NCBI GenBank assembly: GCA_903908605.1
Contig: CAIVSQ010000204.1
Coordinates: 1 to 33,391, forward strand
Direction: 5' to 3'
DNA length: 33,391 bases
From: an uncultured Anaerolineae bacterium
GTDB lineage: Bacteria > Chloroflexota > Anaerolineae > Anaerolineales > Villigracilaceae
Every line of letters starts with the position of its first letter. Within the stretch, counting starts at the first letter, position 1. A program made the translations under genes and the position numbers. Below the pieces are notes generated by a model. The model was not told the origin of the DNA and did not search any database. It saw only the letters and a list, made by a program, of their open reading frames with translations. Positions 1,069 to 29,913 of the stretch are shown in pieces.

Positions 1069-4000
1069 ATGAAAATTGGCACACTGCTCGCAAATCGTTA
1101 CAGAATCGATGCCGAATTGGGGCAGGGCGGGATGGGGACCGTCTACCGCGGCTTCGACTTGCGTCTGAGGCGCTTCGTCGCCATCAAGATGATCTCCAGC
1201 ACCGGGTCCGATCCGGCTGCGCGGGCACGCCTGCTGCTCGAAGCCCAGGCCGTGGCGCAGCTCAATCACCCCAACGTCGTCAACGTCTATGACACCACCG
1301 AAACCGATGACCAGCCCTACATGGTCATGGAACTGGTCGATGGCAAAACACTCAATCACATCGAAGCCCCCACCCTCGAACAGGGCATCGAATATGCCCG
1401 CCAAATCTGCCTGGCTCTGGCGCACGCCCATGAGAAAGGCATCATCCACCGCGACCTGAAACCAGAAAATGCCATCCTGACCGAAACCGGCACCATCAAA
1501 CTGATGGATTTTGGCCTGGCGCGCCTCCCCACCGGCACACGCGTAACCCAGACCGGCACACTCCTCGGTACCCTGCCCTACCTCGCCCCTGAATTAATCA
1601 AGGGTGGCGACCCCAGCCCTCAATCTGATCTTTACTCGCTGGGCATCATGCTTTACGAATTTGTCACCGGCCGGATGCCCTACGACCACAAGGAAAGCTA
1701 CCAGATCCTGGCCTTTCATCTATATGAAGAGCCAACCCCGCCGCAGCTCTATCGCCCCGACCTGCCCCAGCGCCTGGGCGACCTGATCCTGCGCCTGCTC
1801 AGCAAAGACCCGCTCGACCGCCCCAGCTCAGCCCTCGAGGTGGAAGCACTGCTGCAAGACCTGCAAAACCCCATCCACACCAGCCGGCAGTTTGACCGGT
1901 CAGACTTCCCTACCGCGCATGATCTGAAGGTCAGCAACCCACGCACAACCAACCGTCACCTGAATGCCTCCATGCCAGCCCTCGAAGCCGGCGAGAGCCG
2001 CCTGATCCTGGCCAACCGCTTCGTAGAATTGGCATCTGGCATCGATCATCTCAAAAACCATAACCTGCTCATCATCACCGGCATGCCCGGTATCGGGAAA
2101 AGCACCCTCGCCCGCGCCCTGCTGGATTACGCCCCCACCGACACCCCACCCGCCTTTTGGTATGACTTTGAACGCCAGCAGACCAGCGGCAATTCCATCG
2201 GAGTGCTGCTCGACCGCCTCTCCTCCTACCTGGAAAAACACCTCGGCCCCGAAGCGCGTCGCGAGTTGATGGCCTTCCGCAATTCACCCGATGGACAGGT
2301 CTCAGCCCACGAAATTGACCTGCTGGTGGAATACCTGAACCATCAGCCGCCCTTCTGGCTGGTTTTTGACAATCTCGAAGCCGTGCTCACCCGCGGCGCC
2401 AGCACCTTTAGCGACCCTGGCCTCGATCTGCTTTTCCACGGCCTAAAAACCAGCACTCATAACGCCCGCATCATCATCACCAGCCCATTCGTTCCCCTGC
2501 TGCACAGTGGCTCACACCTGCTCGATTTTGGCACCCGCGCCCTCCACCTGCAAGGCCTCAAGGATCAAGCCGCCCTGGCCTGCCTGCGCGCCAACGGTCT
2601 GCAAGACCTGCCCGACCAGGACTTACTGAGCCTGGCTCACAACCTGGGTGGCCATCCCTTCGCACTCATCCAGGCTGCCCGTTACGTTGAGGACTGGGGC
2701 GGCGTTATACCACCCGATTTCCTCGAAGGCAGCTTTGAGATCCTCTCCTCCCGTTTCCATGCCTCGCTGGGTCAGCGCCTCACCCCGGCCGAGATGAAGG
2801 CCCTGCTGGCACTGACGGTTCTTAACCGCCAAGCATCGCTCGCTGGCCTGTGCCAGGTTGCCCAGGCCAGCCCGGCCACCATCAAACGGCTGCGCGAAGA
2901 GGGCCTGCTGGAGGCCAACGAGGGCGGTAATTTTTGCTTAAAACCCATCGTACGCGCCAATATCCGCCCCCAGGACCCCGATCAGCAAATTGAAGTTCAC
3001 CGCCGGGCTATGCAGTACTACCGCGCGCTCGGCGCGCCAGCCATGCTGACAGGCATCGAAGATTTCAGCAACGTCCTCGAATGGCACATCCATGCTGTAC
3101 AGGCTCAAGATGCCCCCAGCGCGCATGCCGCCCTGTTCTCCACCGGCCTGGCCGAACAGCTAAAAAAGTGGAATGAATTTGAATTAATGGCTGACCTGGC
3201 CCAGGCTGTTCTCGGTAATCCCGAATCCACCGACCCCACGCTCACCCCCATTGAGCAGGCCAGGCTGCACGAGTACCTCGGCATCGCCTGGTTCATGCAA
3301 GAGAAATACCCGCTCAGCAGTGCCGCGTTCGAGACCGCCCTGCAGTTGATCACCCCGGACGGGCACCCATCACTGCACACCCACCTGTTGGTGGAATTGG
3401 CTGATTCTCTCAGCAACCAGGGCAAACTGCCTGCCGCCATGGAAAATATCAACCAGGCCTTGCAAGTCCTGGGGCAGCCTGGGCAGGATATCTGGCAGGC
3501 CCGGGCCCTGCATGGCCGCGGCATCATCCATCGCAAGCTCAACGACCCCGCCCTGGCCATCAGCGACCTGGAGCAGGCCCGCGCAATCTATGCCGATCTG
3601 GATGACCTGACCGGCCTGGCTTATGTCACCGGCGAACTGGGCATCGTTTATTTCTACCAAAACCAATTCGATAAGGCCCTCGAAAACTACCGCAATGCCA
3701 CCCAAAATTGCGAAGAAAAACACGACCGGCGCGGTGCCATCATCGGCTACTACAACCAGGGCGATATCCTGCTCCAGCAGGGACAATACCAGCAGGCCTG
3801 CGAGCAGTTCGAAAAAGCCTTTATCCACTCCGGACGCAAAAACTTTTACTTCCTCGAAATTTCCGTTGGCCTCTGCCTGGCAGAATCCCAACTCGGGCTG
3901 GGGCTCACCCCCCAGGCCGCCGACCTGCTCGCAATCCTCGAGCCGCATATCATCCGCCAACCCATCACGCCCTTCCTCGCTCATTTCACCTGGCTGCGGG

Positions 4001-4257
4001 CCGAAATACTCTCGCAGCAGGGCAGTCCACAGCAAGCCCGTGATAGCTTTGAACGCGCATTCGAGATCCTGCCAGAGACCGGCTGCGCCTACGAGCGTGG
4101 CCGCGCCGGGCTGGCCTTCGCGCGCCATCTATCCTCTCAAGCCAAAACAGGCAAAGCCCGCACAGCCTTGCAAGCCGCCAGGCGAGAATTTTCCGAAATT
4201 AACAGCCAGCTCGGCCTTCAAGCCGTGGCAGCCGCGCTCCAGGAACTGGACCAATAA
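1069..4257 (+). CDS. Cytosolic Ser/Thr protein kinase with P-loop NTPase and TPR domains
   Basis: This is a 1062-residue Hanks-type kinase joined to a STAND-like module. Kinase residues 11-265 carry the glycine loop GQGGMG (18-23), Lys40 in [13 protein letters not shown] (127-134), DFG (147-149) and APE (173-175), so all catalytic residues are present. After a linker, an NTPase starts near 310 with Walker [10 protein letters not shown] (338-346) and a Walker B-like [12 protein letters not shown] winged-helix-like stretch follows around 590-650. From about 720 to the end there are TPR-type repeats of around 40 residues, for example [20 protein letters not shown]. No signal peptide or membrane helix is visible, so it should act in the cytoplasm. 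This architecture is known in signalling proteins where TPRs sense partners and the NTPase switches the protein. The ATG has only a weak AGG upstream. Substrates are unknown; the FHA protein at 10588 is one possible downstream partner, but this is speculation. Confidence 0.9.
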
Positions 4258-6610: not shown

Positions 6611-8578
6611 TTAGCGTTCGATGCGCGGGTGGATCCAGGGCGCATGGTCATCGGTCGGGGCACCGTTGGCGCCAACCGCGATGATGAAGTTGCCGGTCTT
6701 GCCAATCAGGGCAGTCAATGCGGCATCAATGACAGGGGTCATACCAGGGCTTTCAACAGCCTCGGTCCGGTCAAGGACGGTGTAAATCGTATCGCCTACC
6801 TTGAACAGCACCCAATACTTGACAGTGCAGCTCGGGAAGCCCGACTGGCAGCCAATGCGTGCCTTGAAGTGATCACCAGATACCACGGTGTAAGCGGTGG
6901 TGTAGAGACCCTGGACGTAACCATCTGTGGCCAGGTTCTCAGGCACCATTACCAGCGACGGGTCGGTGTATGTCACACCATCTTCAAGCTGGACGGTCGT
7001 AACCTTGTTGGCATAACCAATGTCACCAGTCGTGCCACCAAAAGTCAGGACAGTACCAGATCCATTCTTCCACTCGGCGGCTGTGCCCGGGTTGGTGGTA
7101 AAGTCAAACACGATCGTGCCCGAAGGAGGCGGGGCGGGCGTGCTTGGGGTGGGTGTCACCAGGCTGGAGTTTGGGGTATTGGTGGCAGCAGCGTTGCCGC
7201 TTACCACAATATCCACCCACCAGGGTTTGTCAGCCGCGGCACCAATGCCAAAGAGTTGACCGGTGCCATTCTTGAACTGCCAGTAGCCACGGTAAGACCC
7301 AGCTGCAGAAGGTGCGGTCAGGTTGACAGAAATGTTGAAGGACGTGTTCGGGGGCACAGTCGAAGCCAGGTTGATCGGTGAGGTTCCACCCATCTGATTG
7401 CCGCTCACATAGACCAGGGAGTAGCTGTTGGTCCAGGTGCAGGTACCCACGTTCTTGACACGCCAGGTCTTGGTGAAGGTGGTATTGGGTGCAAATACAG
7501 TCCCATCTGGCACGTTCACGTCTTCAATGAAAGTGACACGATCGCAAGAGCTGCTGCTGGCGGTTGGGCTTGGGGTGACGGTCGGGCCACCAGGGGTGAC
7601 AGTCGGCGAAACACTGCCACTGCCAACAATACGCGGTCCGCTCCATACAGCGCGGTCACCGGTGCCATAACCAGCGGCGCCAACATACAGGATGAACTTG
7701 ACACTCTGACCAGCCAGGAAGGACAGGTCAATATTCGGGCTGTAATAAGCGCCTTCGTAGGCCTCATTAAAGCTCCACAGGGTCTGCACAGCCCCGCTGC
7801 CGATCTGGTAATTCAATCGGAAGTTGACATAGCAGGAAGTGGCGTTGTATTCGCAGTTGACAATCGACTGGAAGCGATCGCCACTCTGCACGGTATAAGC
7901 GGGGTAAATACCCTGGATATAGCCGTAGTAAGCATTCTGCGGGACGGTCAGCAAGCCAGCCGAGCCGGTGGAGCCATTCTCCAATACCGGGGCGTCCAAC
8001 TTTTTGGCAAAACCATTCGCATCCCCGTCGGCGCCAGGGAAGGACAGGATGCCAGTCGCGCTCGACCAGATCGCAGATGCGCCGTTGGCGGCGAAGTCAT
8101 AACCGGTGCCACCACTGCCAGCGATCTTGATTTCGACCCAGAATGGGCTGGTTGCGCCCGCACCGATGCCAAATTGCACAGCGCTGGCGTTCTTCAGCTT
8201 CCAATTGCCACGGTAGGTGCCGGCGGCGCTGGGAGCAGTCATGGCGGCGGTCAGGTCAACCGTGCCACCAGGAGCCACGTTGGCAGTCAGAGCGACAGAT
8301 GCTGGCGCGCCCATCTGGGAGCCATCCACAAATACCAGGCTATAGCCCGAAGTCCAGGTACAGGTACCGATATTCTTCAAGCGCCAGGTTTTATTAAATG
8401 AAGCGCCCGCGCTGAAGTATGTTCCGTCCGGCACTGTCACATCCGCGACAAATTGGGCCCAGTCGCAGGTGCTAGTGGCCATGACAGGTTGGCTGGTGGC
8501 TGGCATAAAGCCAAACATCATCACCATGACCAACAAAACCGAAATAAACGCATTGCTCTTTTTCAACGAAAGTTTCAT
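6611..8578 (-). CDS. Secreted protein with two NBR1-Ig/beta-sandwich modules
   Basis: The start is taken as the ATG at 8578 (MKLSLKKSN), because AGGAG lies about 8 bases upstream; the ATG at 8584 is too close. Residues 1-35 are a Sec signal peptide (SVLLVMVMMFGFM, cleavage near MATS). Residues 38-152 and 345-460 are NBR1-type Ig domains, each with C-D-x-x-x-F-x-x-D-V-x-V-PDGT, KTWR(L/V)KN(I/V)GTCTWT and a Y-R-G-x-W-x-(L/F)KN strand. Each is followed by a ~160-residue beta-rich domain (158-320 and 492-655). These two are clearly homologous: GYIQGIYPAYTVQSGDRF matches GYVQGLYTTAYTVVSGDHF. Thr/Pro/Ser-rich linkers separate the modules. Bacterial NBR1-Ig domains are thought to bind proteins or polymers outside the cell; the second domain type is unknown to me. 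It is divergent from the cohesin gene cluster. Confidence 0.85.
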   Translation of the reverse strand: MKLSLKKSNAFISVLLVMVMMFGFMPATSQPVMATSTCDWAQFVADVTVPDGTYFSAGASFNKTWRLKNIGTCTWTSGYSLVFVDGSQMGAPASVALTANVAPGGTVDLTAAMTAPSAAGTYRGNWKLKNASAVQFGIGAGATSPFWVEIKIAGSGGTGYDFAANGASAIWSSATGILSFPGADGDANGFAKKLDAPVLENGSTGSAGLLTVPQNAYYGYIQGIYPAYTVQSGDRFQSIVNCEYNATSCYVNFRLNYQIGSGAVQTLWSFNEAYEGAYYSPNIDLSFLAGQSVKFILYVGAAGYGTGDRAVWSGPRIVGSGSVSPTVTPGGPTVTPSPTASSSSCDRVTFIEDVNVPDGTVFAPNTTFTKTWRVKNVGTCTWTNSYSLVYVSGNQMGGTSPINLASTVPPNTSFNISVNLTAPSAAGSYRGYWQFKNGTGQLFGIGAAADKPWWVDIVVSGNAAATNTPNSSLVTPTPSTPAPPPSGTIVFDFTTNPGTAAEWKNGSGTVLTFGGTTGDIGYANKVTTVQLEDGVTYTDPSLVMVPENLATDGYVQGLYTTAYTVVSGDHFKARIGCQSGFPSCTVKYWVLFKVGDTIYTVLDRTEAVESPGMTPVIDAALTALIGKTGNFIIAVGANGAPTDDHAPWIHPRIER

Positions 8579-8937
8579 AATCATTCTCCTCTATTTGGTA
8601 CAGATCGCCATCTGTTATAGGATGGACGATGGCGATTTATTCTAAGTTCCTGCCAACCATTACAAATACATTACACCCATTTGTCTACATTATTATATAC
8701 TGTTTTTGCGTTACACGAATACATTTAATTGCAAAAAACACACTATTTCGCAATGAAACCAACTATTAATAACAAATTTTACAATATAATCAGGTATAAC
8801 AATATTTCCGGCCCACGACAAGAGGCCTATCCACGCCTGCAAGCATATTGTAATGCAGGAGCAACCAGATCGCAACGTTTTGTCTAGTCCAGCGAATTAC
8901 AATGTTGTTGGGTATGTTATTTTCAAAGGAGAAAAAC
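8579..8937. other. AT-rich divergent control region between NBR1-Ig and cohesin genes
   Basis: No gene is seen here and the AT content is far above the surroundings. Toward the NBR1-Ig gene there is a perfect TATAAT (minus strand, 8692-8697) with a poor -35. A 9-bp inverted repeat ATCGCCATC/GATGGCGAT (8604-8612 and 8628-8636) would form a hairpin in the leader. Toward the cohesin gene there is a TATAAT at 8785-8790 without a convincing -35, and a small CCTGCA/TGCAGG hairpin (8836-8859). AAAGGAG precedes the ATG at 8938. Confidence 0.5.
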
Positions 8938-9900
8938 ATGAAACACACCAATCTTTTCCGTCTTGTTGGCATCTTATCTCTGCTGGTTTCACTCGCCGCC
9001 AGCCCGGCCAGCGTAATGGCAGCCACCCCGTCGCAAAGCACCGGCCCGATCGCCACCATCCACGTCGACAGCATGGTGATGTCCCTCACCACCACCAATG
9101 TCGGTGTTGGGTCCACGGCCACCTACGCCATCGACCTGCAAAACCTACCGGTTGAAGGTCTTACCAGCGCCGAGTTTTCCTGCACCTATAACGCAACCAT
9201 CGTGGAAGTGTCCAACATTGTCAAAACCAACATGTTTGGCTCTGACGCCGTTACCGTTCTCAATGGCCCAGCCTCAGGCACCTTTGTCTTCGCCATTGCT
9301 GGCGTCACCGGCAAAGCCACCACCGCTGGCACCGTCTTCAAGTTGGATATGAAGGGCCTGACCGCCGGTTCCTTCTCCTTCTCCTGCACCGTACGCGCAT
9401 CAAAGGATGGCAGCTCCCTCTTTAGCATCACCTTCACCCCGGCCACCATCACGGTCGCTGCTGCCAGCACCAATGGCACCGTCAGCGGTACAGTCACCTC
9501 AGCCACCAAGCCAGTCACCGTCACACTCTACTCCGGCACCACCCCGGTAACTTCCGCCACCGCTTCTGCTGCTGGTGCTTATACCTTCAGCCTGACTGCG
9601 GCTGCCGGCACCTATAAAATCGTAGCCAGTTCTTCCGGCTACCTGGATGCCCAAAATACCTCCATCACCCTCACCACCGGCGGTACCCAGGGCATGGCCA
9701 CCATTACCCTCAACGCTGGCGATATCAACCACAACGGCTCGGTTGAAGCCCTGGACGTCTCCACCATCGGGACCAACTATAACCTGACCACCCCAACGGC
9801 CGCCGATCTGAACAACGACCACATCATCAACGTCTTGGATCTGCAAATACTGGCTCCCAACTGGGGCAAGACAATTCAGACCTGGGCTGTCGCACCCTAA
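8938..9900 (+). CDS. Secreted cohesin-dockerin protein
   Basis: The start is the ATG at 8938 with AAAGGAG six bases upstream; an in-frame ATG at 8902 has no ribosome binding site. The 320-residue product has a signal peptide (1-28, cleavage after SVMA). Residues 38-175 are a cohesin-like beta-sandwich, with GSTATYAIDLQNLP, GLTSAEFSCTYNATIVEV and AGTVFKLDMKGL. Residues 178-258 are an Ig/carboxypeptidase-regulatory-like domain (GTVSGTV, TYKIVASSSGY). Residues 260-312 are a type I-like dockerin with two calcium loops: D-x-N-x-N-G at 262-267 with Asp273, and D-x-N-x-D at 290-294 with Asp301. Cohesins bind dockerins tightly, so chains could polymerise head to tail or plug into the cohesins encoded next door. 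No catalytic or carbohydrate-binding module is visible. Confidence 0.85.
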   Translation: MKHTNLFRLVGILSLLVSLAASPASVMAATPSQSTGPIATIHVDSMVMSLTTTNVGVGSTATYAIDLQNLPVEGLTSAEFSCTYNATIVEVSNIVKTNMFGSDAVTVLNGPASGTFVFAIAGVTGKATTAGTVFKLDMKGLTAGSFSFSCTVRASKDGSSLFSITFTPATITVAAASTNGTVSGTVTSATKPVTVTLYSGTTPVTSATASAAGAYTFSLTAAAGTYKIVASSSGYLDAQNTSITLTTGGTQGMATITLNAGDINHNGSVEALDVSTIGTNYNLTTPTAADLNNDHIINVLDLQILAPNWGKTIQTWAVAP

Positions 9901-9919
9901 TCTTTTACCAGCATGGAAC

Positions 9920-9955
9920 CACACCCTGGCAGAGTTTCCGCCCTGCCAGGGTGTG
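9920..9955 (+). terminator. Strong hairpin between cohesin-dockerin and cohesin lipoprotein genes
   Basis: A perfect 13-bp stem CACACCCTGGCAG / CTGCCAGGGTGTG encloses a 10-base loop. The nearest T run (CTTTT) begins 6 bases later, so termination may be only partial. It could set unequal dosage of the secreted and anchored proteins, or protect the 3' end of the mRNA. Confidence 0.6.
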
Positions 9956-10032
9956 AATAGCTTTTGATACCTTCATTCATACATGCCCCTGCCTGCGCTG
10001 TACCCCATCACCATACCCAGAAAACATACCCT

Positions 10033-10557
10033 GTGAAAATTCATCTTCGTCTCACTCTCGCAGCTCTTTTTCTTTTATTGGTCTTACCCGCCTGCCAGGC
10101 CAGCCAGCCCCAAGCCACCCAGGCCCCGCAGCCAGCGATCACTGGCCCATATGCCGCCATGCAGTCAACAGATAGCGGCGTACTGCCTGCTTCCATCCAG
10201 GTCGGAACGTCCATCAACCAGGCCATCACCCTGCAGAACCTGCCCGGCGAAGGCCTGACCAGCGCCGAGTTTAACTGCGGTTATGATGCCAACCTGGTCG
10301 AAATCACTGGCCTGGCCAATGCCGATATCTTCGGCGCCGATGCCCTGGCAGCCATCAACGGCCCGGCCGATGGCAAGTTCATTTTCGCCATTGCGTCGGT
10401 CAGCCAAAAAGCCAGCGCAGGCGGTAAAGTGTTTAAATTTGATATTAAAGCCACTTCGCCCGGTACACTCACCCTCAGCTGCCTGGTTAAGGCCTCCTCT
10501 GGCGGCCCGCTCTTTGATATCGTCTTCCAACCGGCCACTGTTACCATTACTCCCTGA
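10033..10557 (+). CDS. Cohesin-domain lipoprotein
   Basis: The start is assigned to the GTG at 10033, which places a classical lipoprotein signal at the N-terminus: VKIHLRL, a hydrophobic core, and lipobox LPAC with Cys21. An upstream TTG (9964) would add a non-signal-like extension. No clear Shine-Dalgarno is visible. After a Gln/Ala/Pro linker the remaining ~125 residues are one cohesin-like domain. It is strongly similar to the cohesin of the preceding gene: both read NLPxEGLTSAEFxCxY, followed by I-F/M-G-x-DA and a G-K-(V/T)-F-K-(F/L)-D strand. It would be a membrane-anchored receptor for dockerin-bearing partners, plausibly the neighbouring cohesin-dockerin protein. There is no other domain. 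The gene sits 30 bases upstream of the cohesin-FHA gene and was likely duplicated from its neighbour. Confidence 0.8.
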   Translation: MKIHLRLTLAALFLLLVLPACQASQPQATQAPQPAITGPYAAMQSTDSGVLPASIQVGTSINQAITLQNLPGEGLTSAEFNCGYDANLVEITGLANADIFGADALAAINGPADGKFIFAIASVSQKASAGGKVFKFDIKATSPGTLTLSCLVKASSGGPLFDIVFQPATVTITP

Positions 10558-10587
10558 ACTTCGCCCCCTCATTCCCTGGAATATCCT

Positions 10588-11610
10588 GTGAAACGTCTGA
10601 CCGCCCTCATCCTGGCTCTACTGATCGCCTTCCTCGCGCTGCCCGTGGCACGCGCCCAGGCAGCCGAAACGATCTGGATTGAAACCAGCCAGGATTCTTA
10701 CACAGTCGGCGAACCCATTACCATCACCCTAAAAACCAACACCACGCGTTCCATCCAGGGCTTCACTTACAAACTGCGCTTCGACCCGGCCTGCATGCAA
10801 CCCGAGGTGCCCGTCAGCCTGTTCTCTGAAATAAATTACATGGCTGTTCCGCAAACTCCGGGCCAGGTGGAGGCCATCTTCGCCAGCACCAAGCCCATCC
10901 AGGCCACCGGTGGCATCTCCGAGATTCACTTTTCCACCATCGCCAGCTGCCAATCAAGCATCAAGCTGGAAGAAGCCCGCCTGATCATCGCCGGCACAGA
11001 TGGCATGGCCGTACCCATGAATGGCGTCAGCCAGGGCACTAGCAGTCTGGTTATCCGCATCGCCGGTGCAGCCGCCCCCGCTGCCATTGCCATCACCCCG
11101 CAAGCCGTAAATACCGATCCCCAAACCAGCTCCACCGCCGCCCCTCAGCTCACCCCCGAGCCTGCCAGCCCAACCAATACCTGGAGCTGGTTGCTTGTAC
11201 CGCTTGGCATTTTACTTGCGCTGGTCCTTTTTATCGGAGCCATCGTCGTCACGGTGCAATATGTGCGCTCAAAGCGCATGATTACCACCCGGCGAGAAGC
11301 CCCCGCCCCACGCCAAATGCCGGCTCTCTTTGTCAAGCGCGGCCCACAAAGTGGCACAACCATCGTCATCCCGGTCTTTCCCTGTCGGATCGGCAGCGAC
11401 CCCGATAACGAAATCTGCCTGGTGGATGTACGCATCGCACCCGCCCACGCCGAAATCCTGGCCGACGAGTACGGCTACACCCTGCTGGATCTGGGCAGCG
11501 AATATGGCACCTACCTCAACGGGCACCTGGTGAAAAATCAGCAAGCCCAACTCAAGGTCGGCGACACGCTGCGCCTGGGCAGTATTATCATGATGTTTGG
11601 CCCAGCCTGA
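10588..11610 (+). CDS. Cohesin-like, transmembrane and FHA-domain protein
   Basis: A GTG start at 10588 gives a signal peptide (1-25, ending ARAQA). Residues 28-158 are a cohesin-like sandwich (DSYTVGEPITITLKTNT, then GFTYKLRFDPACM, and I-S-E-I-H-F). A Thr/Pro/Ala linker leads to one membrane helix (about 199-224), a basic stop-transfer (RSKR) and a cytoplasmic FHA domain (247-340) with RIGSDPDNEI, HAEI, LDLGSEYGTYLNG and a final LRLGSIIMMFG. FHA domains usually bind phosphothreonine. Here the conserved IGR is IGS and the S-R-x-H motif reads A-P-A-H, so the key Ser and Arg are missing and binding may be lost or changed. The topology links an outside cohesin to the cytoplasm. It is probably co-transcribed with the two genes upstream; dinB follows 29 bases later. 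Confidence 0.8.
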   Translation: MKRLTALILALLIAFLALPVARAQAAETIWIETSQDSYTVGEPITITLKTNTTRSIQGFTYKLRFDPACMQPEVPVSLFSEINYMAVPQTPGQVEAIFASTKPIQATGGISEIHFSTIASCQSSIKLEEARLIIAGTDGMAVPMNGVSQGTSSLVIRIAGAAAPAAIAITPQAVNTDPQTSSTAAPQLTPEPASPTNTWSWLLVPLGILLALVLFIGAIVVTVQYVRSKRMITTRREAPAPRQMPALFVKRGPQSGTTIVIPVFPCRIGSDPDNEICLVDVRIAPAHAEILADEYGYTLLDLGSEYGTYLNGHLVKNQQAQLKVGDTLRLGSIIMMFGPA

Positions 11611-11639: not shown

Positions 11640-12818
11640 ATGCCTCGAACCATCCTGCACCTCGACCTGGACGCCTTTTTCTGCGCGGTCGAAGAACTGC
11701 GCGACCCGACCCTGCGCGGCAAAGCTTTTGCCGTTGGCGGTCGCCCGGAAGAACGCGGCGTGGTGGCATCCTGCTCGTATGCCGCCCGCGCCATGGGTGT
11801 ACACTCCGCCATGCCCATGAGCCAGGCCCTGCGCCTCTGCCCCAGCCTGCTGATCGTTTCATCCGGGCGGGGCCGGTATTCCGAGAAATCCGCGCAGGTG
11901 ATGGACCGGCTCAACAACCTGGCCCCGTTGGTGGAGCAGATCTCAATCGACGAGGCCTTTGTCGATATCAGCGACATCCGCTCACCCGCTCACCAAACCG
12001 CCGAAAATCTGCAGCGCCAGGTCATCAACGAATTGGGGCTGCCTTGCTCGGTGGGGGTTGCCTCCAATAAGCTGGTCGCCAAGATCGCCACCGAAACCGG
12101 CAAAAAAACCAAACGCGCCGCGGATAGCTTTGGACTGCCCGGCTACCCTTGCGGGCTGACCATCGTGCCACCAGGTACCGAAGCCCAGTTCCTTTCCAGG
12201 CTGCCGGTATCCATGCTGTGGGGCGTGGGTCCAAAAACCGAAAAACGCCTGGCCGAACTGGGTATCCACCACATCGGTGAGCTGGCCGCCCTGGGCGAAA
12301 ACACCCTGGCAGGCCTATTTGGTGAAAATGGCCGTGATCTGGCCCGCCACGCCCTCGGCCAGGATGACCGCCCGGTGGTTACCGAACATGCCGCCAAATC
12401 GGTCAGCCAGGAAACCACCTTCGCCCGCGATGTCAGCGATGATCACCTGTTGGAAGATACCCTGCGCGAGCTCTCCGCCTCCGTGGGCCACAGCCTGCGA
12501 AGCGAAAACCTGGCCGGAACCACCATCAAACTCAAATTACGCTGGCCCGATTTCACCACCCTCACCCGCCAGGCCACCCTCCCCAGCCCCACCAACCTGG
12601 ACGAAGAGATCTTCCACACCGCCCGTGAGCTGCTGCACAAGATCCGCGAAAAAGGCCGCCCGGTCCGGCTGATCGGCGTGGGTCTCACCAACCTGGGTCC
12701 ACCCATTCGCCAGATGGAATTATGGGGACAGGAAAACGAAAAGGCCCGCAAGCTCCAGGAAGCCCTGGATAGCCTGCAGGCCCGTTATGGTCGAAAAGTG
12801 GTCGATCGCGGCCGTTAG
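11640..12818 (+). CDS. dinB: DNA polymerase IV (Y-family)
   Basis: This 392-residue translesion polymerase has the expected full length. Its catalytic carboxylates are in HLDLDAFF (Asp9, Asp11 region, with aromatic steric gate at 13-14) and SIDEAFVDI (Asp104, Glu105). The finger motif SYAARAMGVHSAMPM is typical of DinB. The thumb has helix-hairpin-helix DNA contacts (LPVSMLWGVGPKTEKRLAELG), and the little-finger domain runs from about 235 with VSQETTFARD. The C-terminus RYGRKVVDRGR does not end in a recognisable beta-clamp motif. It extends undamaged or damaged primers with low fidelity. The start has no clear ribosome binding site and lies 29 bases after the FHA gene, so it may be translated from that transcript. 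It converges on fmt with only 4 bases between the stops. Confidence 0.95.
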   Translation: MPRTILHLDLDAFFCAVEELRDPTLRGKAFAVGGRPEERGVVASCSYAARAMGVHSAMPMSQALRLCPSLLIVSSGRGRYSEKSAQVMDRLNNLAPLVEQISIDEAFVDISDIRSPAHQTAENLQRQVINELGLPCSVGVASNKLVAKIATETGKKTKRAADSFGLPGYPCGLTIVPPGTEAQFLSRLPVSMLWGVGPKTEKRLAELGIHHIGELAALGENTLAGLFGENGRDLARHALGQDDRPVVTEHAAKSVSQETTFARDVSDDHLLEDTLRELSASVGHSLRSENLAGTTIKLKLRWPDFTTLTRQATLPSPTNLDEEIFHTARELLHKIREKGRPVRLIGVGLTNLGPPIRQMELWGQENEKARKLQEALDSLQARYGRKVVDRGR

Positions 12819-29240: not shown

Positions 29241-29846
29241 CTAGAAAGTCGGATTACTGTCGATCAAACGCTGAATTTCCGCATCGATCTGTCTCATTTG
29301 TTTGTCGATATGCGCAATGATCTCCTGATGGGCGTTTCTGGCGACTACGGATAAGACCCTTTTGCGATTTACGGCCTGCAGCCCATTCTTATGAGAAGCT
29401 ATTTGCGCTGAAAGCATCTGTCGCGTGCTCAAAAGCACCTCAACTTGCTCCAAAATCTCATTTCTGGGCTGCCAGATAGCCAGTTTGTCTGCATAACGGC
29501 AGGCGTACTCGCTGATAGTTGTGCAATCGAGAAGATCAGGCTTGGATGCATTGACCCGAAACTCGCGCGCGATGTTAAGTGGCGGCTCTACTGCAGCAGG
29601 ATAGCCGCTGGCGCATAAGAAATAAGCCAGACCTTCACTATACGCGCCGTTGGCCTCCATGCACACCACCGTATGCTCCGGCTTCAGGTTGTGATCCTTC
29701 ATCCAGTCTAGAAAGGATGCATAACCATCCTCGGAATGATCAAGTTGCACCGGTTGGACCACCAGCTTCCATGGTGCTGTACCGGCACAGGCCGTAAAAG
29801 TAGCGAAAGCAATATCTACACCAACAAAATGAGTAAATTGTGACAT
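29241..29846 (-). pseudogene. IS110 family transposase, truncated after the RuvC-like domain
   Basis: The ATG at 29846 has a strong AGGAGG six bases upstream. The 201 residues match the N-terminal DEDD (RuvC-like) half of IS110 recombinases: Asp11 in FVGVDIAFATF, Glu64 in VVCMEANGAYSEG, and Asp104/Asp107 in KPDLLDCTTISEY. A helical region up to IQRLIDSNPTF follows. Full proteins run to 300-400 residues and continue with the Tnp_IS116/IS110 domain (SIPGIG motif) that carries the catalytic serine. Here TAG and TAA follow at once, so the serine domain is missing and the copy should not transpose by itself. The upstream gap is unusually structured (see the ncRNA entry). Confidence 0.85.
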
Positions 29847-29913
29847 CACAAACCTCCTGGACCAGGCGTGAATGAGCTGTCTCCATGGTGTATACTACTT
29901 TTGCTTTATTCAT

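Follow-up and report, generated by a model that had tools for sequence, protein, structure and literature searches.

Three cohesin-type genes at the locus

The stretch of DNA analysed here, which we call the window, is a contig of 33,391 nucleotides (CAIVSQ010000204.1, assembly GCA_903908605.1) from an uncultured Anaerolineae bacterium of the family Villigracilaceae, and our subject is a run of three cohesin-type genes on its plus strand. The first, P1 (gene A; 8938-9900, +; Pfam and family profile), specifies a secreted protein of 320 amino acids (aa) in which Pfam places a cohesin (~9076-9462), an X module matched by CarboxypepD_reg (9478-9711) and a dockerin (~9715-9873). The second, P2 (10033-10557, +), encodes a lipoprotein with an LPAC lipobox (cysteine at 10093-10095) and a cohesin (~10198-10554; Pfam Cohesin, 4.3e-7). 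The third, P3 (gene B; 10588-11610, +), specifies a signal peptide, a cohesin fold (~10657-11070), a transmembrane (TM) helix (~11185-11271) and an FHA-fold domain (~11314-11607), which we place in the cytoplasm because basic residues come after the TM helix.

A preliminary description of the locus had reported a head-to-tail trio of this kind, and the observation holds: a cohesin–X–dockerin protein, a cohesin lipoprotein and a cohesin–TM–FHA protein. The outer domain of P3, which had been termed "cohesin-like", is a cohesin fold by both profile and fold comparison, with the C. perfringens (Clostridium perfringens) glycoside hydrolase cohesins 2vo8 and 2jh2 as the nearest folds to the P3 ectodomain. 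P1 and P3 exemplify a cassette conserved in one Anaerolineales family. Three genes make up its general form: A (cohesin–X–dockerin), B (cohesin–TM helix, in some proteins followed by FHA) and C (M23 peptidase–cohesin–X–dockerin). We think that P1 and P3, as its A and B, probably belong to a small non-cellulosomal surface assembly that is largely self-contained, in which the X-dockerins of A and C would dock on membrane-held B. Computed here were domains, folds, gene order, co-occurrence and, in one relative, a placement of the X-dockerin on B that is predicted with confidence.

A conserved A–B–C cassette and the variant in the window

When P3 was searched in 152 genomes of the family, 12 other genomes gave matches of nearly full length; the remaining strong matches are confined to the N-terminal part. 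We assembled two sets of loci, both collected by likeness to B: 35 loci drawn from 34 of 48 further genomes counted as B-bearing, and 40 loci in records carrying taxon names; many contigs are common to both, so the sets are not independent. For counts of gene order, we set aside loci with fewer than 600 bases on the upstream side of B or 900 on its downstream side (L066 was separately set aside from a count of loop residues). B was present in 34 of 35 loci of the first set, with A directly upstream in 29/32 (misses: L062, L064, L065) and C directly downstream in 27/32 (misses: L039, L047, L062, L064, L065). The second set gave B in 38 of 40 loci, A in 32/34 and C in 31/34. Three loci were counted as having no B, namely L045, where the match has an inner TGA, L081 and L101. 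In L047/L080, C was probably hidden by the picker of longest open reading frames (an 893-aa plus-strand frame of that genome, G137, holds a cohesin) and was still counted as a miss, while in each set four C genes cut by a contig end were recognised by M23 alone. Intergenic gaps within the cassette are mostly 15-80 bases. Record names in the second set are all Chloroflexi (Anaerolineales, Anaerolineae, Anaerolinea, Chloroflexi and one Candidatus Villigracilaceae). The three-gene order of the window recurs in part: A followed by B is conserved (29/32), but the exact trio is not, as P2 is found only here and the conserved third partner is C.

At the mapped loci, the A, B and C proteins have a single cohesin stretch each, and in the tree the cohesins of A and C do not separate into two clean clades. 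At E <= 0.01, 28 of 29 aligned A proteins matched Pfam Cohesin and 28 of 29 Dockerin_1; all 23 aligned C proteins matched Peptidase_M23, with a dockerin in 21 and a cohesin in 20. Among 34 aligned B proteins (E <= 0.1), 33 matched cohesin and 13, including P3, matched FHA. The genome G011, assembled as one contig, carries two cassettes (L039 and L060), one of them A–B with FHA and lacking C, the other A–B–C without FHA.

The N-terminal domain of C is a LasA-like M23 domain (LasA E 2e-17 for the protein of L031). Five residues (H65, D74, H112, H161 and H163) are invariant in 23/23 C proteins. H112 and H161/H163 align with LasA, while H65 and D74 fall off LasA's own His and Asp in the alignment; the LasA residues used for this comparison are those that we take to be its His/Asp ligands. 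As the match of the invariant residues to LasA is partial, the M23 domain of C is a putative peptidase whose activity is likely. The general cassette would then probably hold a wall- or peptide-cutting enzyme at the cell surface. Two of the 23 C proteins also match glucose/sorbosone dehydrogenase.

The set of possible partners is nearly closed. Counting B at E <= 1e-13 and cohesins of the P2 type (A/C-type) at E <= 1e-6 in the 152 family genomes, we found both in 47 and neither in 100, with only five discordant genomes (B only in G143 and G069; cohesin only in G010, G097 and G100; Fisher p 5e-33, kinship between genomes ignored). For 26 genomes, picked because they have B (17) or lack it (nine), Pfam finds dockerins and cohesins in the 17 and in 0/9. 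Of the 33 dockerin matches in these 26 genomes, 30 lie in A- or C-type genes; two of the 30 belong to G099, where they sit in paired cohesin–dockerin frames at a distance from the B gene. Where the genome is a single contig (G011, G136 and G142), all Pfam dockerin and cohesin matches fall at cassette loci. The dockerins of A and C therefore have few cohesins available besides the cassette's own. The three remaining dockerin matches are one in G064 (C83) and two in the window genome, G000. The latter are a small X–dockerin protein on C507 (L067:6299-7033, -; 245 aa, signal-like start, no cohesin match), which may serve the window's cohesins as a free ligand, and a 1244-aa protein on C510 (L066:4384-8115) in which a C39-like peptidase domain is joined to two cohesin-type stretches and a dockerin. 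Among 400 genomes sampled across the phylum, the B profile matched seven (E <= 1e-8), all of the same family; Pfam cohesins and dockerins were found in 36 and 44 of 400 sampled genomes, respectively (E <= 1e-4), so the domains themselves are not special to this family.

Measured against its relatives, the window departs from the cassette in three respects. P1 is without the N-terminal domain found by alignment in most other A proteins (PPC by Pfam in 8/29). P2 has a cohesin that is the sister of the P1 cohesin in the tree (support 100/98; 60/119 identities), and among matches in the 152 family genomes it is the sole free short cohesin (open frame <230 aa). It is accordingly rejected as a conserved part of the cassette, and is by sequence a local duplicate of a P1-type cohesin. 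Downstream of P3, in place of C, lies a gene for an IMS-family (DinB-type) polymerase (11640-12818), and a search for C elsewhere in the window genome gave only an M23-region match (31% identity) on C119, where Pfam found no cohesin or dockerin; as the genome is 91% complete, absence of C from it is not proven. Two genomes of the same genus, G064 and G068, carry A–B–C (A is cut by a contig end in G064). Taken together, these comparisons suggest that the window holds a rearranged variant with a P1 short of its N-terminal domain, a missing C and a duplicated cohesin that, as the lipid-anchored P2, would provide a second cell-bound cohesin. Since C is lacking from the variant, the window assembly would be structural or adhesive. 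Between P1 and P2 lies a hairpin (9920-9955, +; folding energy -29.1 kcal/mol, z of -4.7 relative to 200 shuffled sequences) with a 13-pair outer stem followed by a weak U tract, possibly terminator-like; it was absent from the list of the consensus scan.

Proposed docking on the membrane-held cohesin and possible role of the FHA domain

The A family profile aligns through to the CipA Coh–X–Doc structure 3kcp_A (E 7.7e-10), and X module and dockerin are packed as one unit, as in CipA or ScaA; the X-dockerin of the cassette resembles type II X-dockerins. For the B cohesin, the sequence profile favours type II, while the fold is nearer to the C. perfringens cohesins. An early proposal for this locus was that the P1 dockerin may dock on the lipid-anchored cohesin or on itself. 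In a relative, the A X-dockerin, fused to the B cohesin of that relative, is predicted with confidence to dock on it (predicted template modelling score, pTM, 0.83). Docking on the membrane anchor is our best explanation because the X-dockerin is type-II-like and because of this fusion prediction. We infer that A and C would dock on B in a calcium-dependent manner, for which the loop residues and the fusion model are the evidence, and that P1 would bind P3 in the window. That these proteins are instead plain surface beta-sandwiches (adhesins) that bind no dockerin, their gene order reflecting inheritance only, strikes us as improbable.

The modules of A and C also invite another arrangement, in which the dockerin of P1 (or of any A or C) binds the cohesin of the next P1, A or C protein, or of P2, to build a chain or coat for which B is only a possible end anchor. 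A and C each have one cohesin and one dockerin, few other dockerins are present per genome to fill those cohesins, and the dockerins of A and C are nearly identical. The classes of the modules speak against such a self-polymer: the dockerin belongs with the type II X-dockerins, but P2 and the A profile match type I cohesins first (4ums) and the C profile matches the Ruminococcus ScaC cohesin first (5lxv). In cellulosomes, a type II X-dockerin and a type I-like cohesin are usually non-cognate. We regard self-polymerisation as unlikely. Similarly doubtful, in our estimate, is a closed filament in which A and C link up, from B outward, as a surface polymer bearing M23 peptidases, the FHA form of B tying its base to the cytoplasm; that A and C could chain at all is suggested by each having one socket and one plug, with almost no other partner in the genome.

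The preliminary description had further suggested that P3 could give a cytoplasmic readout of surface assembly. P3 does join an outer cohesin, a single TM helix and an FHA fold, and a Ser/Thr protein kinase gene lies ~6 kb upstream in the window (1069-4257, +), the kinase being joined in one protein to a NACHT/AAA-like ATPase region and TPR repeats. On the other side of the balance, an FHA match is absent from 21/34 aligned B proteins. Moreover, in the alignment to OdhI, the Arg, Ser and Asn that we take to hold phosphothreonine are replaced by S, A and Y in P3. Among the 12 FHA-bearing relatives, the Arg is kept in seven, the Ser in four and the Asn in none, the last because of a two-residue gap; all three residues occur together in 0/13 B proteins with FHA. 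The proposed readout is weakened by both the patchy occurrence of FHA (13/34) and the missing residues (0/13 with all three), and phosphothreonine readout by P3 in particular is disfavoured by its lack of the Arg, Ser and Asn. We accordingly give little credence to P3 as a sensor that reports assembly through its FHA domain. Most likely, to judge from these substitutions, the domain makes a phosphate-independent protein contact rather than a classical phospho-readout.

Docking on B thus remains the reading that we prefer. In its general form, secreted A and C, the latter with its LasA-like M23 domain, both end in a type-II-like X-dockerin; these would dock, with calcium, on the B cohesin, which a single TM helix anchors in the membrane, and would thereby retain a peptidase, together with a scaffold or adhesin protein, on the cell surface. 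Targets there may be the cell's own wall or sheath, or neighbours, and the P3 FHA domain would act in the cytoplasm as a phosphate-independent contact.

Two further genes of the window were noted. A secreted protein with two N_BRCA1_IG (NBR1-type Ig) stretches is encoded divergently from P1 (6611-8584, -); N_BRCA1_IG is also matched by 1/23 C proteins, and the C protein of the relative at L034 matches the product of 6611-8584 after its cohesin. A 202-aa open reading frame (29241-29849, -) matches an IS110-type transposase.

Comparison with known cohesin–dockerin systems

The early view that this is not a classical cellulosome is upheld by the absence of glycosidases and carbohydrate-binding modules (CBMs). 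No glycoside hydrolase family was matched in the 29 A and 23 C proteins (E <= 0.01) or in the C507 and C510 proteins, and no CBM among the aligned A, B and C proteins or, despite its two cohesin stretches, in the C510 protein. With neither dockerin-bearing glycoside hydrolases nor a many-cohesin scaffoldin with CBM, we reject a cellulosome. A close structural parallel is type II anchoring in CipA (Coh9–X–DocII; 3kcp, 4fl4) and ScaB/ScaA (4u3s), which shares the cohesin–X–dockerin order of A and C, the X-dockerin fold and an anchoring cohesin on a separate protein. Unlike CipA/ScaA anchoring, the cassette has proteins with one cohesin each, no CBM, no glycosidase and an M23 peptidase as its enzyme, and its anchor is a TM helix with or without FHA, whereas cellulosomes use SLH domains or a sortase signal. 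The C. perfringens cohesins 2vo8 and 2jh2 belong to glycoside hydrolases, whereas that of P3 is a membrane anchor.

Papers are cited below by PubMed Central (PMC) number and drawn on in excerpt. Peptidases occur among cellulosome producers, with a Ruminococcus flavefaciens cysteine peptidase on the ScaE cohesin and a C. thermocellum S8 protease with a double dockerin (PMC12484212). These resemble the cassette in placing a putative peptidase on a surface-anchoring cohesin through an X-dockerin; the cassette enzyme is of another family, and theirs act within a cellulosome, with no fixed three-gene cassette apparent in the excerpt (PMC12484212). Lachnoclostridium sp. MSJ-17 has a single cohesin with a C-terminal TM helix and 39 possible dockerin proteins (PMC11557425). 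A and C resemble the monovalent adaptor scaffoldins of that account (dockerin plus one cohesin), and B its non-SLH anchoring scaffoldin with a C-terminal TM helix; unlike the cassette, those scaffoldins stand beside many dockerin proteins, and the excerpted text mentions no FHA (PMC11557425). Neither "Chloroflex" nor "Anaerolin" occurs in that paper.

Outside cellulosomes, cohesin–dockerin proteins occur in archaea (Archaeoglobus and ANME, anaerobic methanotrophic archaea). Archaeal pairs with verified bonds are known, and ANME proteins link dockerins to ABC substrate-binding proteins or S-layer domains and also combine a dockerin with up to five cohesins (PMC9012536); in syntrophic sulfate reducers, cohesin–dockerin proteins are putative adhesins (PMC10553843). 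Like the cassette, these are cohesin and dockerin genes outside cellulose degradation with a proposed surface role, but the excerpted ANME account names neither a fixed A–B–C order nor M23 or FHA (PMC9012536). Closer to home, the excerpt of PMC4877987 reports no dockerin or cohesin for five Anaerolineae genomes and UNI-1. In tandem loci of a sister family (G307 and G339), genes for a secreted cohesin, for a cohesin–dockerin and for TM-ended cohesins run head to tail next to that of a large dockerin protein; unlike the cassette, they have two TM-ended genes, no FHA or M23 match and a weak match to the cassette profiles. At L108:684-11884 and L109:3925-18000, in a sister family, such a tandem series opens with a large dockerin protein and goes on with a secreted cohesin, then a cohesin–dockerin, then two cohesin genes with C-terminal hydrophobic ends.

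We found no description of the A–B–C cassette in the open-licence PMC literature, judged mostly from paper listings, and no match there for dockerin, cohesin and peptidase M23 together. Non-cellulosomal cohesin–dockerin pairs are familiar from their domains but have rarely been described as a defined system; a compact set with nearly all possible partners inside the cassette makes the role of such pairs without cellulose testable on a handful of proteins. If our model is true, these uncultured bacteria use a plug and socket to tether a peptidase to a cohesin in the membrane. We class the cassette as a new form of non-cellulosomal cohesin–dockerin system, not as a cellulosome.
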